Shown here piece by piece: positions 5,580 through 13,604 of a stretch of DNA of 20,941 nt (the stretch's first letter is position 1; every line of letters begins with the position of its first letter). Under the pieces are notes generated by a model. That model saw only the letters and a program-made list of their open reading frames with translations, was not told where the DNA came from and searched no databases. Source of the DNA: a virus; the IMG/VR virus record IMGVR_UViG_3300037487_000415, positions 1-20,941 of that record; one strand, given 5' to 3'. The position numbers were made by a program, and so were the translations under genes.

Positions 5580-7718
5580 TTATGCGCCAAGTGCAGGCAT
5601 TGGTAGTTTCTTTTCAAGGCTTTCAACGGCGATCTTGATGGCATCAACTGCTTTTTGCAAAAGGTTTTCTGGTGCAGCTTCTGGCTTAGGCGCTTCGCCG
5701 GGCTTGTCACCCTTTTTGCCCTCAGCTCCGGGCTTCAGCTCCGCTTGGCGTTTTTTCATCAGCTCTTCTTGCAGCTGCCTTTTCGTTTTACCGAAAGTGT
5801 CAATGCCTTGCTCTTTGGCAATGTCTGTTACGCTTTTTCCGAGGCCTCCTTCTTTCTTTCCAAATGCTTCTTGAAAGGCACGATCAAACTCACGGCTTTG
5901 AACTTGGCGGCCAATGCGACGCGCAGCAGCAAAGTTACCTTTGCCTTGGGCTTCAGTAGCTGCCTTTTCCATTTTCCCACCGGGATCAAGTCGATCTTTG
6001 CGTTCGGCAGCGTTTGCATCGGCAATGATCTTAGCACCGAGGCCAAGCTGCTTCATCAGCTCCTTTGTGATTTCCTTTTTGCCGTTGAGGTCTTCTTTGT
6101 TTTTGGCAATTACGCCGTCGATGATGTTCAGACGAGCTTTGTTGGCGTTGGCCATAGACTCATCGAGACTTAGCCCCTTTTCCTTTGATGCTTGCAGTTC
6201 TAGGTGAAAGGCTTTCATCGCCTCCAGCGCGGCAAGCTCTTCTTCATTACCTTGGCGCTTGGCTGAGGCGATGTCTTCATCTAGTTCCTTAATGCGATTC
6301 TCATGCGTCAGTCGATCCTTTGCGATCTTCACGCTCATCTCCTCGACGGTTAGCTTGTTAGCGGCAGAGGCAGCCGCATCGGCAGCGGCAATAGCCTCCA
6401 TTTTTTTGAGCTCGTTTCGGTGCTCTTGTAGCTTTACCTCCATCACCGATGTGTCGATCAGTTGCTTTGCATTTCCTAAAGAATTTGTAAAAGCAGCATC
6501 AGCAGCATTTCCTGCCTTAACGAAATCCTCACCGATGCGCTCTGCTAATCCGCTGATAACACCTGCTTTTATACGAATTTCGGCATCCAAGGCGTTTATG
6601 GCATCAGCATCACTAAATGGCATTGATTCAGCAATAGCCAGTTTCAATTTTAATGCCATCTGTTCGATTTTCTGCTCGATGATATTGAAAATCATGCTGT
6701 TGCCGCCAAACATCGTTGTCAGAAACGCGCCTGCTGCTGCTCCTCCTGCTTTTACATACGCTACTATGCTGTTGATGCTGTCGGCAGCTTGGAGCTTGAT
6801 GCTTTCAAAGGCGATCTTGAACGCCAGCCCGAACTCGCCGAGCTTCAGGGCGCTGAGCGCGTCGGTAAAGCCGCCCATCGCGTTTGACGCTCCGGTGATG
6901 ATCTCACCGAGCTTCATGCCCGCGCCTGCCGCGTCGAATCGAGTGATCAGGGTCGTGGCCAGTTCCAGCGCAGGGGCGAGGCTTTCAAGTAGCCCTGCGG
7001 CGAACTCCAAGAACTTGCCTTTTGCCACCTTGATGTTGTCAGAGATGTTATCGAAAGCACCGGCGCTGCGATCCATCACGCCGGGCATGTTGCCAAGCTG
7101 GTCTTGAGCTGTTTTCAACTCGCCGGAAAAGTCCGCCAGTAGCGGCAAGAGTTGCCCGCCCGCCTTGCCGAAAATGCCCATCGCCAATGCCGACCGCTCG
7201 CCGTTGTCAGATACTCCGTTCAGCTTCTCTGCAAGCAACGCCATCTGTTGCGTAGGGGTCTTGCCCTGCATGTCAGCCATAGTCAGACCGAGGCGGGCAA
7301 GGGTCGTGATGTTCTTCTCGCTGCCTTGCGCGGCATCGTCCATGAACTTCTGTAGCTTGTTAATCGACGTGCCGACCTTGTCTGCGCCGACTCCCGAGTT
7401 ATCGAACGCCCGGCGCAGCAGCAGCAGGTTGCCCGCTGTCTCGCCTGTGCGCTCGCTCAGGTCTTTCATCGTGCCGCCGAGGTCGAGCGCGTCCTTGAAC
7501 GTGTCGAGCGTGCCGGTGATGGCACCCATCGCCGCCTTGATTGCGCCGAAGCCGAGAGCCAGACCAGCCCCCGCTTTGACCATCGAACCGAAGGATGTTT
7601 TTACCGAGCTGGCGGTCTTCGCCACTGAGTCATCCATGCTTTTTACCGAGGTCTTGACCTTGGAAACGGTCGATGTGAACCCAGCATCGGTGGCGGAAAA
7701 CTTTACGTCGAGGCTCAT
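5580..7718 (-). CDS. Tail tape measure protein
   Basis: The 712-residue protein is the longest in the window and lies directly after the tail assembly chaperone, the standard place for the tape measure. The N-terminal third has the usual core (DLSERTGETAGNLLLLRRAF, residues 86-105, then PTQQMALLAEKLNGVSDNG and SALAMGIFGKAGGQLLPLL). Hydrophobic stretches occur at about residues 50-68 and in the middle (AGGAAAGAFLTTMFGG). Residues after about 430 are charged, helical and probably coiled coil. By the lambda ruler (about 0.15 nm per residue) the tail would be near 100 nm, which is an inference. The ATG overlaps the TGA of the frameshifted chaperone by ATGA and has no visible Shine-Dalgarno, so translation likely depends on that upstream stop. 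Confidence 0.88.
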   Translation of the reverse strand: MSLDVKFSATDAGFTSTVSKVKTSVKSMDDSVAKTASSVKTSFGSMVKAGAGLALGFGAIKAAMGAITGTLDTFKDALDLGGTMKDLSERTGETAGNLLLLRRAFDNSGVGADKVGTSINKLQKFMDDAAQGSEKNITTLARLGLTMADMQGKTPTQQMALLAEKLNGVSDNGERSALAMGIFGKAGGQLLPLLADFSGELKTAQDQLGNMPGVMDRSAGAFDNISDNIKVAKGKFLEFAAGLLESLAPALELATTLITRFDAAGAGMKLGEIITGASNAMGGFTDALSALKLGEFGLAFKIAFESIKLQAADSINSIVAYVKAGGAAAGAFLTTMFGGNSMIFNIIEQKIEQMALKLKLAIAESMPFSDADAINALDAEIRIKAGVISGLAERIGEDFVKAGNAADAAFTNSLGNAKQLIDTSVMEVKLQEHRNELKKMEAIAAADAAASAANKLTVEEMSVKIAKDRLTHENRIKELDEDIASAKRQGNEEELAALEAMKAFHLELQASKEKGLSLDESMANANKARLNIIDGVIAKNKEDLNGKKEITKELMKQLGLGAKIIADANAAERKDRLDPGGKMEKAATEAQGKGNFAAARRIGRQVQSREFDRAFQEAFGKKEGGLGKSVTDIAKEQGIDTFGKTKRQLQEELMKKRQAELKPGAEGKKGDKPGEAPKPEAAPENLLQKAVDAIKIAVESLEKKLPMPALGA

Positions 7719-8337
7719 AATAATTTAGCGAATGCGTTGTCTATTAGGGCGCGGGAGTCAAACGGCGTTGCGTCGTTCCGGTAGGTGCGCTGATGACCGG
7801 CTGCGTATGAGTCGCAATCGAGGATCTGCAAGCCTGCCGCAATCGGTAGCTCCTCCATGATCTCGGTGTAGCCCCAGCCGGTTATGCTTGCGATGCGCCA
7901 GGCATAGCTTGCGAGCCAGTTGGGGATAGCTAGTTTTTTCTCGCAGCCCCGGCAGTCGCGATACCGCCAGCCTCCTGCACGGCGGTTGACGACGCGGCAA
8001 GGTAGGTGTTCATCGCCTCGCTCATCAGGTCGCTGTATGGCGAGAGTTGGGCATGGTGCGGAAAGTTTGCCTCGATCCAGTCGTCCACCGCGTCGAGGAA
8101 GGCGTTGCGGTCATTGACGACGGCGCGGATGACTTCGCGCGGCTGGCTGTGGAGATAGACGAACGCGGCAGTCTTCTGCATCGAATCGCCGGTATCGCCG
8201 AACACATCGTTGCGTTGCAGCCAAGACAAGCTCAAGGCCGTCATAGGGCGAATGGTGATACCGCTGATCTTCTTGTCGCCTTGGGTCATGCCCTGCTCGC
8301 GCAGTGCCTCGTCATCTGTCAGTAGTTCTATGCTCAT
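7715..8337 (-). CDS. Tail assembly chaperone, -1 frameshift long form (lambda gpGT-like)
   Basis: Slipping back one base at 7933-7939 carries the ribosome past the TAG at 7930-7932 into an open frame of 72 codons. It reads LAIPNWLASYAWRIASITGW, then GYTEIMEELPIAAGLQIL and so on, and ends at TGA 7715-7717. The fusion would be 207 residues. The extension contains no in-frame ATG near its beginning, so it is not an independent gene. Its stop overlaps the tape-measure start exactly (ATGA). The composition is protein-like, and otherwise about 210 bases would be non-coding in a dense operon. In lambda the analogous extension binds tail tube subunits while the G part coats the tape measure. The frameshift itself is inferred, not shown. 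Confidence 0.8.
7930..8337 (-). CDS. Tail assembly chaperone, short form (lambda gpG-like)
   Basis: The 135-residue protein lies between the tail tube region and the tape measure, where long-tailed phages encode the chaperone that coats the tape measure during tail assembly. It is soluble and helical (MTALSLSWLQRNDVFGDTGD, REVIRAVVNDRNAFLDAVDD). Its last codons are GCG AGA AAA AAC TAG, so the stop follows immediately after a perfect A AAA AAC slippery heptamer. Most ribosomes should terminate here and make the short form. Sequence similarity to lambda gpG is not obvious by eye; the role rests on position, size and the frameshift signal. Confidence 0.8.
   Translation of the reverse strand: MSIELLTDDEALREQGMTQGDKKISGITIRPMTALSLSWLQRNDVFGDTGDSMQKTAAFVYLHSQPREVIRAVVNDRNAFLDAVDDWIEANFPHHAQLSPYSDLMSEAMNTYLAASSTAVQEAGGIATAGAARKN
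7933..7939 (-). promoter_or_regulatory. Slippery heptamer A AAA AAC for programmed -1 frameshift
   Basis: In the zero frame the codons are AGA AAA AAC TAG, which matches the X XXY YYZ rule exactly, and A AAA AAC is among the most slippery heptamers in bacteria. A purine-rich AGGAGG element lies about 31 bases upstream, further than the usual stimulatory distance. Only weak 5-bp stems (for example TAGCT at 7928-7932 with AGCTA at 7905-7909) are visible downstream. Confidence 0.82.
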
Positions 8338-8784: not shown

Positions 8785-9159
8785 TTAGGCTTCGGTCATC
8801 GTGGACGCGTATTGCGTTGCCGATACCGAGATCCGCTTAAACTCGCCTTGAGCAGTGGACTCATTGACTGAATCGACGATGATCGTTCCGCCAGTCAGTC
8901 CGCTTGTCGTGGTGTCGTTGGCAAGGGTAAGCAGGGCAGCTACGTCATAGGTCGCTGTGCCGTTGATGAAGCCATCAAGCGTGATAGCTGCGGTCAGGCC
9001 AGAATAGGCAACGGCGACAACATCGTTGTCCGCATCGCGCACCTCGGTTTTAACCGAGCTGACATTGCGGGAGAATGAAGTGAGGATGATGTTCGTCTCA
9101 TTGACGATACCATACTCGAGATCAGCGGCGGTGGATGCGGTGTAAACTGTGGCGGCCAT
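8785..9159 (-). CDS. Major tail tube protein candidate
   Basis: The 124-residue protein has the composition of a tail tube or Ig-like tail subunit: strand-rich, high in Thr, Ser, Ala and Val (YGIVNETNIILTSFSRNVSS, VVAVAYSGLTAAITLDGF), with no Lys-rich or membrane segments. It follows the U-like gene and precedes the chaperone and tape measure, the position of lambda V. It is about half the length of lambda gpV, so it would correspond to the tube domain alone, without the C-terminal Ig domain. A hairpin abuts its ATG and another follows its stop, unusual for this operon and consistent with a highly expressed gene under its own post-transcriptional control. The assignment is by position and composition. 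Confidence 0.65.
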   Translation of the reverse strand: MAATVYTASTAADLEYGIVNETNIILTSFSRNVSSVKTEVRDADNDVVAVAYSGLTAAITLDGFINGTATYDVAALLTLANDTTTSGLTGGTIIVDSVNESTAQGEFKRISVSATQYASTMTEA

Positions 9160-9194: not shown

Positions 9195-9623
9195 TCATGG
9201 CGGGTCGTTCTGCGCCTGCGGGTCGAATCGGGAGCACATCGTTTCGATGGAGAAGGAGATTTCCAAGATGTTTTCGTCCCACTCCTGCACGCTGCCGGAA
9301 TACGTCCAGGCATAGACTTTCACGAGGTCACTGGTTGCAGCTTTAATAAAGCTCACATCGGTCAGGGTCGTCTCAATCTGGTCAATCCAGCCGTCGATGT
9401 CTTCATCGTCACCGGCATGGACGCGCAGGGTGGCCGTCAGCTCGATCCGCTCAACATTCTGAAGTGCCTCGCTGTGGGCGGTGGCTGCTGTCACGTCCAC
9501 GGCCAAGAGCGGCAAGGCAATCTCGCCGCGTTGCTTTGCATCCACGACGGCGATGGATTCGTCAGGCTTGGCCGCGTCTAGGACGGCGATCAGGGAAAGT
9601 TTGATTCGTTGGGAGGTGGTCAT
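9195..9623 (-). CDS. Tail terminator / minor tail protein, lambda gpU position
   Basis: The 142-residue protein begins MTTSQRIKLSLIAVLDAAKP and has an alpha/beta pattern typical of gpU-like tail terminators: an N-terminal helix, then strands (EIALPLLAVDV, ERIELTATLRVHAG), an acidic helix (DEDIDGWIDQIETTL) and a final strand (ILEISFSIETMCSRF). Its start overlaps the stop of the Z-like gene (ATGA, 9620-9623), so the two are made together, as expected for the pair that caps the tail before joining to the head. The call rests on gene order and predicted fold; residue-level homology to lambda gpU is not evident by eye. Confidence 0.68.
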   Translation of the reverse strand: MTTSQRIKLSLIAVLDAAKPDESIAVVDAKQRGEIALPLLAVDVTAATAHSEALQNVERIELTATLRVHAGDDEDIDGWIDQIETTLTDVSFIKAATSDLVKVYAWTYSGSVQEWDENILEISFSIETMCSRFDPQAQNDPP

Positions 9624-10337: not shown

Positions 10338-10862
10338 TCAGGCAGCCTTGCGGCGATTCGCACGAGGCGCTTGCGGCACCCAGCGTAGCACGTCATCCGT
10401 GCGACCGGCGACGTAGCGGGCGCTTGGGTTGCGAACCACGGCACCCTCACCGCCTGCCGTGACGATCTCATCAGCGTGCTCGATGAGGTGGCGGGTGTCG
10501 CGGCAGCGCACCTGGGCGACGATGCCGACGTGGGCTGGGAGGTCGAGAGTCAGTAGGTGCTTGTAGCGGGCGCGGAACGGTGCAGCGCTTGGCGCATCGA
10601 ACGCTTGGAAGGTCAGGCCGTGCCAGCCAGCGGCCATGAGAGTCTGAATCTGATTGAACTCGCCGCGCCCGGCGAAGAGTTCACCGTCGAGCTCAACTGC
10701 TGGCATGCCTGCCTTGAACCATGCGGGGGCGGGCAGGATGTTGCCTTGGCGGGTGATGAACTCAGCACCATCCCACATGACGCGCCAGCCGTCGAGCTTC
10801 TCACTCATCAGCCAGCCGTCAACGGGTTGGCCTTGGTAATCGCGTAGGAGAGTTGCTTGCAC
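10338..10862 (-). CDS. Minimal ATP-dependent DNA ligase-like nucleotidyltransferase, GTG start
   Basis: With the GTG at 10862 as start the protein has 174 residues. It shows ligase motif I EKLDG (Lys22, the adenylated residue), motif Ia TRQGN (38-42), motif III ELDGEL (57-62), motif IIIa FQAFD (85-89) and motif IV EGAVVR (139-144). Motif V, usually LLKxK, reads VLRWVP here, so both lysines are replaced. The OB-fold domain that normally follows is absent; the protein ends in a basic tail (APRANRRKAA). The frame stays open upstream to 11114, but that part is an off-frame reading of the neighbouring head-tail gene. GTG is preceded by GAAAGGGG, the clearest SD-like sequence nearby. It could seal nicks, act only in nucleotidyl transfer, or be a degenerate relic. 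A ligase among tail genes is unusual. Confidence 0.78.
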   Translation of the reverse strand: MQATLLRDYQGQPVDGWLMSEKLDGWRVMWDGAEFITRQGNILPAPAWFKAGMPAVELDGELFAGRGEFNQIQTLMAAGWHGLTFQAFDAPSAAPFRARYKHLLTLDLPAHVGIVAQVRCRDTRHLIEHADEIVTAGGEGAVVRNPSARYVAGRTDDVLRWVPQAPRANRRKAA

Positions 10863-10870
10863 GCCCCTTT

Positions 10871-10907
10871 CTAGGCTTTGCCTAGGTAGTTGTAAAGACT
10901 TTTTTTT
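10871..10907 (-). promoter_or_regulatory. Promoter/operator-like element, copy 2 (before ligase-like gene)
   Basis: On the minus strand an A-tract (A8) is followed by TTTACA (10891-10896, -35-like), then the perfect palindrome CTAGGC AAA GCCTAG (10871-10885). TAGAAA overlaps the palindrome end as a possible -10 at 17-bp spacing. The same architecture occurs at 14488-14525. If the -10 is right, transcription would start at or very near the GTG of the ligase-like gene. The palindrome sits where a repressor would block polymerase. Confidence 0.55.
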
Positions 10908-11223
10908 ATCGCGAATCCCCAGCGCTCGCCAGCGTGAACGTGATCGCCACGTTGCCGACTGCGACCTCAGCCACGCGGAACGGCTCGCCGTCGATGGTGC
11001 AGCGTTTCTGGAGTAGCGCGTTGGGCGTGGTGACTGCGCCCGGCTGCGCCACGACGGTGGCTTGTAGGTCGCTTTCCAGCCCGCCCAGCGCACCCTCGTA
11101 GCTCTTCCGCGCATCGTTAAAGACGACGGCGAATGTCTGACCGGCGCAGACCATCGTGCGCGTGCCGATCAGCTCATCCGTCTCTTCGTGTCCGCCGTTC
11201 AAAAAGTCGTCAATGCCGCTCAT
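10906..11223 (-). CDS. Head-tail joining protein candidate (lambda gpFII position)
   Basis: The 105-residue protein begins MSGIDDFLNGGHEETDELIG and continues with strands (TRTMVCAGQTFAVVFNDARK, CTIDGEPFRVAEVAVGNVAI). This resembles small phage proteins of the head-tail connector type that carry a modified base of antiparallel strands. In lambda order, the gene between the capsid and the Z/U pair is FII, which attaches the tail to the head. Here it is separated from both neighbours by accessory genes: glycosyltransferases upstream and the ligase-like gene downstream. It starts 16 bases after the glycosyltransferase stop without a visible Shine-Dalgarno. The functional call is from position, size and strand pattern. 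Confidence 0.65.
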   Translation of the reverse strand: MSGIDDFLNGGHEETDELIGTRTMVCAGQTFAVVFNDARKSYEGALGGLESDLQATVVAQPGAVTTPNALLQKRCTIDGEPFRVAEVAVGNVAITFTLASAGDSR

Positions 11224-11803: not shown

Positions 11804-11894
11804 GTGTTTTCTTTCTAAAGATTGCGTCGTAGTTGTTCCGGTATGCCGGAGCGTCACCCAGCCGGTGCCAGTCCCCTTTATGGGTCTTGCTCAT
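11685..11894 (-). CDS. Small coupled ORF between the glycosyltransferases, 69 residues
   Basis: The ATG at 11894 overlaps the stop of the upstream glycosyltransferase by ATGA, the same coupling used by undoubted genes in this window. Residues 1-29 (MSKTHKGDWHRLGDAPAYRN then NYDAIFRKK) look like a real small polar protein. The remaining 40 residues are read out of frame over the start of the next glycosyltransferase and are Arg/Pro/Thr-rich, so they look like shadow coding. Either the gene truly overlaps by about 119 bases, or an original stop near residue 30 has been lost. Function unknown. Confidence 0.5.
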   Translation of the reverse strand: MSKTHKGDWHRLGDAPAYRNNYDAIFRKKTHDPINTDTDDTRAREAAPSPPTKDRGTDRRAARRAPEPE

Positions 11895-13543
11895 GGTTTG
11901 AGTCTTTCATAAGTTACCAGCCCTGCCTCGTAGTTTGATGGGTCATTGCTGCGGGCATACGTCTCATCGACCTCGGCCTTGCCGAACGCCGGGTGCATGT
12001 GCTCAATCACGATGTCCTTGGCGTCGATCACCACGCCGTCGGCATAGGCTCGGTCGGTGAAATGGTTGTCAGAAAACACGCTGAAAAAGTCAGGATGGAA
12101 TAGGTAGCTTTGTTTTTGGTAGCGAGCGCGGTTGAGGATCGCCATGCAAAGCAGGTTGTCGGTGCGGTGGCCGTCGCTGATCGCCAGCACCGCGGGTGTC
12201 GTGACTCCTTTGAACTTGGCAAGGATCAGCTTGTCCCAGTGCATCGGCGGATCCCAGTCATCGGAAAGTTGGATGAGGATCTCGCCCTTGGAGAACTTCG
12301 CGGCCTCGTTCCACGCAGCCACTGGACCGCGTCCGGGGTGGATGACGTGGCGACAGGTGATGAACGGCCCGATTGTCTCATCGTCTGGATCCAACGCGAA
12401 GATGTGCTCGATTGCGTCGGGGTCTGCTGCTCGGTCAAGCCATGTCGCCCGCGCTTTGTAAGCCATTGCAGGCCGTCCGCGCGTAGCGTGCAGGAGGCTG
12501 ATCTTCGCGCCGTGCAGGATAAAATGGTTCGCCTCGATGGCGTTGGCCTCCTCGTAACGGTCATTTGCCCGCAGGCACATGCCGCGCACTTGCACGCCCT
12601 GCCAGCCGTAGAACTTCTTGCGGCTGTTCCACCACCAGGCGGCGGGGTTCGGCAGGCAGTTCATAACTTCCGACCAGTTAAGAGCAAGCGGGAACTGGTT
12701 GGCTTTGAGCGCCTCCATGGCAAGCTCAGCGTAGGCTTCGCGCCGGTCAGGTGATACGGCGATGGCTTGCAGGTAAAGCTGCGACCGCGTGGCTGCGTCC
12801 GACACCATCTGACCCATGACGAGAAACGCCTCGTAGCGTTCCGGCTGCCCCGCGTCGGGTGCCATGCAGAGCTTGGAGGCTGTCCCCATGGCTTCTTCGA
12901 TCTGACCAAGCGCCCGCTCGCTCTGCATCATGTAGAAAAGCTGGCTGCTCGTCACCTCGTCCTCGGGGATCGAGCGGAGGATGCGGAGGTTGCGCTCGTC
13001 ACTGGATGATTTACGCTTGCCGTGTGGAAGGTGAAGTATCTGCACCTTGTCGAACCGAGCCATAGGAGCGTTAGGAGCGAACTTGAGCGACTCATGGATG
13101 GGATTGTGCCACCGAGCCGCGCCACGCCGCCAGAGGCGCTCCCTGTGCAGCGTAATGCCGTCGTCTGGCACGGCGTAGGGCATGAGCACGCCTTGGATGT
13201 CGTCACCGAGCTGCGGTAGCATTGCGCGGATCGAGGCGCAGTCCACCGGCATGATCGTGTCATCAGTGTCTGCCCACATAAGCCAGTCACCAGTCGCAAG
13301 ATCAAGGGCAGCGTTGCGGGCTGCAGCGAAGTCATCAACGTGCGGCCAGTCGTGGAAATTCAGATATTCACCGATGACGCAGCCGCGAGCCTCAGCGATG
13401 TCCAGCGTCCTGTCCGGTTCCTGATTCCCGATTGCCCGCACCACGATGATCTCGTCGGCGATTGGCTCGAAGTGATCGAGGAAACGGGTGATGTAGTTTT
13501 CGGCGTTGCCGGTGATGACGCACAGACTCAGTTTGTTTTTCAT
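11891..13543 (-). CDS. Two-domain glycosyltransferase with internal helical repeat region
   Basis: The 550-residue protein (ATG 13543) has three parts. Residues 1-180 are a family 2 GT-A domain: first strand KLSLCVITGNAENYITRFLD, then DFAAARNAAL and the DxD motif WADTDD (90-95), then a region typical of SunS/TPR-type glycosyltransferases (WHNPIHESLKF). Residues 195-345 are helical and look like TPR-type repeats (AYAELAMEALKANQFPLALN). Residues 346-550 form a second GT-like domain that starts LLHATRGRPAMAYKARATWL and has its own acidic motif LSDDWDPP (426-433). It may add two sugars in sequence or use the second domain for acceptor binding. A frame extension upstream to 13585 has no GT features, so I chose the internal ATG. 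The stop couples to the small ORF by ATGA. Confidence 0.8.
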   Translation of the reverse strand: MKNKLSLCVITGNAENYITRFLDHFEPIADEIIVVRAIGNQEPDRTLDIAEARGCVIGEYLNFHDWPHVDDFAAARNAALDLATGDWLMWADTDDTIMPVDCASIRAMLPQLGDDIQGVLMPYAVPDDGITLHRERLWRRGAARWHNPIHESLKFAPNAPMARFDKVQILHLPHGKRKSSSDERNLRILRSIPEDEVTSSQLFYMMQSERALGQIEEAMGTASKLCMAPDAGQPERYEAFLVMGQMVSDAATRSQLYLQAIAVSPDRREAYAELAMEALKANQFPLALNWSEVMNCLPNPAAWWWNSRKKFYGWQGVQVRGMCLRANDRYEEANAIEANHFILHGAKISLLHATRGRPAMAYKARATWLDRAADPDAIEHIFALDPDDETIGPFITCRHVIHPGRGPVAAWNEAAKFSKGEILIQLSDDWDPPMHWDKLILAKFKGVTTPAVLAISDGHRTDNLLCMAILNRARYQKQSYLFHPDFFSVFSDNHFTDRAYADGVVIDAKDIVIEHMHPAFGKAEVDETYARSNDPSNYEAGLVTYERLKP

Positions 13544-13604
13544 ATTTCTACCGGCGATGTAATGCAGGGGGTGGGTGGGTGGCAAGGCGATTATTTCATA
13601 TGGC

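Follow-up and report, generated by a model that had tools for sequence, protein, structure and literature searches.

Programmed -1 ribosomal frameshifting of tail assembly chaperones is well established in phages, as in G/G-T of lambda, gp13/gp14 of HK97 and E/E' of P2, and -1 sites that touch a stop codon are known from plant RNA viruses and from Rous sarcoma virus (RSV). Here we describe a junction that combines these two features on a 20,941-base virus contig (IMG/VR record IMGVR_UViG_3300037487_000415), analysed over its full length and referred to below as the window; all junction genes lie on its minus strand. Immediately 5' of the tape measure gene, two open reading frames (ORFs) stand in a -1 relation of the G/G-T type. 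From the arrangement of the two frames and its conservation in relatives, a -1 programmed ribosomal frameshift very probably yields a short chaperone of 135 amino acids and a rarer fusion of 207 amino acids for tail assembly.

The chaperones of lambda, HK97 and P2 are proteins without sequence similarity to those of the window, whereas the lambda heptamer, GGGAAAG, is also used by some of the window's relatives. The stop lies 15 nucleotides (nt) behind the heptamer in lambda and 18 nt behind it in P2, whereas the distance is always 0 nt in the window's family. The mean heptamer-stop distance is 26 nt in the SEA-PHAGES set (PMC10885494) and 36 nt in the set of Xu et al., as quoted in the same source. 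For lambda, a ratio of short to fused protein of 30:1 is cited in PMC5009743.

The polymerase -1 sites of luteoviruses, dianthoviruses and umbraviruses (barley yellow dwarf virus, BYDV; red clover necrotic mosaic virus, RCNMV; groundnut rosette virus, GRV; pea enation mosaic virus, PEMV) consist of a slippery site, a stop and a stem-loop, with the stop 3 nt after the slippery site in PEMV, unlike the direct contact in BYDV, RCNMV and GRV (PMC4737148). The latter three share with the window's family a stop directly after the heptamer and a stem-loop close behind the stop. They differ from it in their eukaryotic ribosomes, a 5-nt spacer and a long-distance RNA contact, whereas the window's family has bacterial ribosomes and a spacer of 6-7 nt. 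In PEMV other stops are equally effective, but with a sense codon in their place frameshifting in vitro drops by ~72%; for BYDV results on the role of the stop conflict (PMC4737148). In RSV gag-pol and at the intercodon of human immunodeficiency virus type 1 (HIV-1) the stop is the codon after the heptamer, as in the window's family, and there it had no effect (RSV) or lowered frameshifting (HIV-1). The HIV-1 slippery site with an engineered intercodon stop gave lowered frameshifting both in mammalian cells and in Escherichia coli, and in E. coli extra RF2 abolished it, which was read as slippage from the E and P sites (PMC4373837). The timing of slippage, before or after passage of the heptamer through the ribosome, is disputed, and so is the effect of a stop behind the slippery site, with conflicting results for HIV-1, RSV, BYDV and PEMV. 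None of the papers searched described a phage family with a fixed stop-touching -1 site and changing heptamers and stops, and as far as that search goes the fixed contact in this phage clade is unusual.

Junction and relatives

The 3' end of the upstream ORF (8337-7930) reads GCG AGA AAA AAC TAG. A -1 slip there leads into CTA GCT ATC ..., with 72 codons in all before TGA at 7717-7715. The initial annotation had described this junction from the window alone, as A AAA AAC in phase directly before the stop, with a -1 frame open for 72 codons whose stop falls on the tape-measure ATG (ATGA); its coordinates and fusion residues (136-207) agree with the sequence. A search with the upstream protein found nine IMG/VR loci, and many further loci were reached through the -1 part and profiles. 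Removal of identical 300-nt contexts left 144 distinct junctions. A tree was built for 54 representatives (<90% nucleotide identity) with the junction columns excluded; because the contexts are related to each other, changes counted on this tree, and not the number 144, measure the independent evidence. Three relatives are located in metagenome-assembled genomes of Verrucomicrobia, which is therefore probably the host phylum of the phage family.

Conservation of the heptamer and the adjoining stop

An in-phase heptamer of slippery type with a directly adjoining 0-frame stop was present in 144 of 144 junctions, and the question raised by the initial annotation, whether relatives keep the heptamer and the -1 frame, is thereby answered in its favour, the -1 frame being open in all complete relatives. 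The identity of both elements varies: the heptamer is GGGAAAC in 61 junctions, AAAAAAC in 37, GGGAAAG in 27, GGGGGAG in 17 and AAAAAAG in 2, and the stop is TAG in 85, TAA in 53 and TGA in 6. On the tree of representatives this corresponds to minimum numbers of 6 changes for the heptamer, 5 for the stop and 10 for their combination, across which the contact was never lost.

The first -1 codon, which supplies the first two bases of the stop, is restricted to CTA, GTA or CTG (synonymous constraint, z -15.4); elsewhere in the same ORFs CTA makes up 11% of Leu codons and GTA 6% of Val codons. This codon creates a 0-frame stop in 54 of 54 representatives; at other positions of these ORFs, comparable Leu/Val codons do so in 37 of 194 cases.

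The heptamer G GGG GAG was seen in 17 contexts, including loci L024, L026, L052 and L064. On this heptamer the P-site tRNA re-pairs fully and the Glu tRNA meets GGA with a middle G-U pair, which makes it a weak heptamer by the usual rules.

Downstream stem-loop

Codons 2-26 of the extension fold more stably than synonymous-codon nulls, with a mean z of about -2.0 and 43 of 54 representatives below -1; windows further downstream gave z of 0.1 to -0.8. RNAalifold placed an 8-bp stem starting 7 nt after the heptamer, with a loop of 38 nt. With one outer pair added (9 bp), 93.5% of the pair cells are paired, and the covariation (0.293) was reached by none of 500 shuffles (0.174 +- 0.012; search range, the first 84 nt from the heptamer). 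Control stems slid along the alignment were 27-63% paired and all had covariation below that of the real stem. Eight or nine of the nine consensus pairs form in 131 of 143 contexts, and in the window's own fold (-21.8 kcal/mol) the closing stem pairs CCCCA with UGGGG where the consensus has it.

Compensating swaps connect the two arms: the third base of Gly19 (GGT/GGC) tracks the second base of codon 5 (A/G) on the opposite arm, and codon 3 (third base) is linked in this way to codon 21 (second base). At column pairs 20:63 and 15:68, no swap on independent tree pairs ran in the wrong direction, but these tree pairs are too few for a sign test. The codon for Pro4 is CCC in 50 of 54 representatives, a preference that we attribute to the requirement of the stem. 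The initial annotation had suggested that a slow stop might replace a downstream structure as the stimulator. With the conserved, covarying stem 6-7 nt after the heptamer, this suggestion is not supported; the stop is thus the first codon of the spacer and no substitute for the structure.

In window positions 7700-8050, no Rfam frameshift element was matched at E values up to 1. A Shine-Dalgarno-like stimulator 5' of the heptamer, in the style of dnaX, was considered and rejected, since only 15 of the 54 representatives carry Shine-Dalgarno-like 4-mers within 20 nt.

Distant homologues and the Akkermansia prophage Moulinsart

Remote homologues were recovered when 388 genomes of the phylum were searched with a profile; in them the same cassette occurs with the stop at other distances, and they can serve as comparison cases. 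The heptamer-stop distance is 15 nt in L256 and L257 (both CCCAAAC), 3 nt in L258 and 18 nt in L254 (GGGAAAC), and the IMG/VR relatives L260-L262 have the stop 15 or 18 nt after the heptamer. A strong stem lies 6-7 nt after the heptamer in L256, L257 and L254 (z -2.5, -4.2 and -3.5, respectively), and the stem is weak or different in L258 and L255. Both L255 (a ten-A run near the junction and no clear stem) and L254 (upstream ORF closed after 29 codons) were used with caution. The contact between heptamer and stop is therefore not inevitable, as a stem at the same place is retained in distant homologues whose stop lies 3, 15 or 18 nt from the heptamer.

No close relative of the window proteins was found in the named-phage collection, where only the distant Akkermansia phage Moulinsart (ON453896.1, 10632-11332) was reached, through L257. 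In Moulinsart, which has a distant homologue of the window's -1 part, the in-phase sequence is CCC TCA AAA AAC TAG, followed by a stem (GCCGG/CCGGC) at roughly the same spacing as in the window's clade, and nine IMG/VR loci have the same arrangement. Its fusion is unannotated, being recorded as separate hypothetical proteins, and extra genes precede its tape measure. In a short tree, partly unresolved in its branching, Moulinsart groups with L256-L262 and apart from the window's clade, according to which the stop contact would either have arisen twice or have been lost several times. Moulinsart is an inducible prophage of Akkermansia muciniphila strain YL44 (PMC10197239) and, with its culturable host, offers a laboratory handle on the system.

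Proposed mechanism and possible role of the adjoining stop

By sequence comparison, the reading frame, the heptamer, the adjoining stop and the stem are all under selection; that the slippage is translational, the rate at which it occurs and the role of the products as chaperones are what we infer from them. In the proposed mechanism, most ribosomes would decode AAA AAC and then terminate at the adjoining stop. A minority, aided by the stem-loop 6-7 nt downstream, would slip one base back with two tRNAs on the heptamer and translate the 72-codon extension as far as the tape-measure start, so that few fused chaperones would be made per many short ones, as in lambda.

The adjoining stop may be a working part of this mechanism, with release factor competing against -1 slippage while the stop occupies the A site, so that the yield would follow the speed of termination; we regard the chances of this as about evenly balanced. 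The occurrence of all three stops is consistent with the view that any stop will do. A stricter version, in which the stop is required because slippage takes place once the heptamer has been decoded and the stop already occupies the A site, and in which the ratio of short to fused protein follows the release-factor activity of the host, is put forward only tentatively and seems to us rather doubtful. If it were true, bacteria would offer a natural example in which -1 frameshifting is tied to termination, an arrangement fixed throughout a phage clade and arrived at independently by Akkermansia prophages. The family in any case provides a large natural bacterial set in which the position of the stop is frozen and the identities of heptamer and stop vary.

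Alternatively, the same frameshift could operate with a passive stop that serves only to end the short protein and whose position is inherited and hard to move, and, granted that the frameshift is real, we give this an even chance. It agrees with the distant homologues, which appear functional with the stop at 3, 15 or 18 nt, and with changes of the RSV intercodon, which left frameshifting unaltered as cited in PMC4373837. The next 0-frame stop, moreover, lies 65 codons downstream in 87 of 144 contexts, and part of the constraint on the first -1 codon is thus explained by the need to end the short protein. Against a passive stop, the contact was kept in 54 of 54 representatives across at least 5 changes of the stop; the representatives contain 19 spare 0-frame stops at codon 14 or 17, yet the first stop was kept in every case; and the contact is also found in the separate clade of Moulinsart. 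These three observations argue that the contact reflects more than the ending of a short protein.

Several points weigh against the proposal of a stem-assisted frameshift with a working stop. In E. coli, frameshifting at the HIV-1 site fell when a stop was placed behind it (PMC4373837), and retention of the 0-frame stop in the present family may have no other cause than the distance to the next one, often ~65 codons. In 17 contexts the heptamer is G GGG GAG, for which A-site re-pairing is poor. Of the 9 consensus pairs, only 7 form in the window itself, whose fold is no better than that of dinucleotide shuffles (z -0.3). Finally, homology to known chaperones was not found.

Coding pattern of the extension and other explanations

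The -1 products of relatives have 43-99% identity to that of the window, and complete extensions span 72-87 codons. Before the heptamer, the -1 frame lacks conservation and closes within 3-12 codons in many relatives, several of which have only 3-8 open -1 codons there and no start codon among them. At the end of the 0-frame protein, residues are free to vary except for the two that are fixed by the heptamer. This coding pattern is what a shift at the heptamer, and not independent initiation, would be predicted to leave in the sequences.

Independent translation of the second ORF by re-initiation after the stop, as might be suspected from the frequent coupling of short overlapping ORFs in operons, is accordingly very improbable. 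The initial annotation had noted that the extension has no useful start of its own, and the -1 frame of the window indeed contains no ATG, GTG or TTG from the upstream stop (59 codons back) through extension codon 25. In 81 of 144 contexts, too, no such codon occurs between the last stop upstream and the end of codon 10; conservation of the protein begins at the heptamer, and heptamers turn over among slippery types only. Slippage of RNA polymerase on an A-run, creating a fused message, might be considered for the six A of the window, but most relatives carry GGGAAAC, GGGAAAG or GGGGGAG at the same position and the downstream stem is conserved at ribosomal spacing, which leaves this explanation an equally slight chance. 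Weakest of all is readthrough of the frame-0 stop, since, although stems behind stops are also known from readthrough sites, frame 0 of the window closes again after 15 codons and the conserved protein is that of the -1 frame.

Identity of the putative chaperone

The two proteins have no match to a family in Pfam, PHROG or NCBIfam, an AlphaFold model of the upstream protein (mean confidence score, pLDDT, of 77) has no significant fold match, and neither part matches known tail assembly chaperones in sequence or fold. The class shows low sequence similarity between phages (PMC5009743), with which a chaperone recognized by analogy and lacking detectable homology would still be compatible. The name chaperone, as used in the initial annotation, thus holds by position and architecture and finds no backing in homology: by position, frame arrangement and the stem-assisted shift, the pair would be a G/G-T-like chaperone, and by homology it was not placed among known ones. 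The family has as yet no name, and gene finders will miss it or call two genes.

Features of the locus

The window contains a phage structural module with terminase, portal, a ClpP-like protease and capsid. The junction features are collected in Table 1. Two ORFs that are candidates for the major tail protein (8785-9159 and 9195-9623) had no Pfam family match.

Table 1. Coordinates of the junction features in the window, with the evidence for each
Feature	Position	Strand	Evidence
Upstream 0-frame ORF, 135 aa, putative lambda-G-like tail assembly chaperone by position	7930..8337	-	ORF and relatives; adjoins tape measure
Slippery heptamer A AAA AAC, in phase	7933..7939	-	Sequence; other slippery heptamers replace it in relatives
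0-frame stop TAG, in contact with heptamer, first spacer codon	7930..7932	-	TAG, TAA or TGA here in 144/144 junctions
Stem, 5' arm (consensus columns 14-22)	7918..7926	-	RNAalifold and pair counts; window pairs CCCCA 7925-7921
Stem, 3' arm (consensus columns 61-69)	7871..7879	-	RNAalifold and pair counts; window pairs UGGGG 7876-7872
-1 frame extension, 72 codons + TGA, predicted fusion residues 136-207, T-like part	7715..7933	-	Open and protein-conserved in all complete relatives
ATGA, -1 frame stop overlapping tape-measure start	7715..7718	-	Sequence; TGA 7717-7715, ATG 7718-7716
Tape measure protein, 712 aa	5580..7718	-	phrog_9483, tail length tape measure, E 7.8e-20

The ATGA overlap was found in many relatives, but not in all, the others showing gaps or larger overlaps. 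Tape-measure starts of the ATGA type often have no obvious Shine-Dalgarno sequence, and for this reason translation of the tape measure may, where the overlap occurs, rely on the small number of ribosomes that have shifted frame. A TGA in the third frame and often a TAG in frame 0 close both other frames a short way ahead of this start.

Two further genes of the minus strand were observed among the structural genes of the window. An ORF in the head-tail block (10338-11114) resembles DNA ligase (PF01068, E 7e-4, below the curated cut-off), and a gene resembling family 2 glycosyltransferases (11891-13585; PF00535, E 1.8e-12) lies between the capsid and tail genes.
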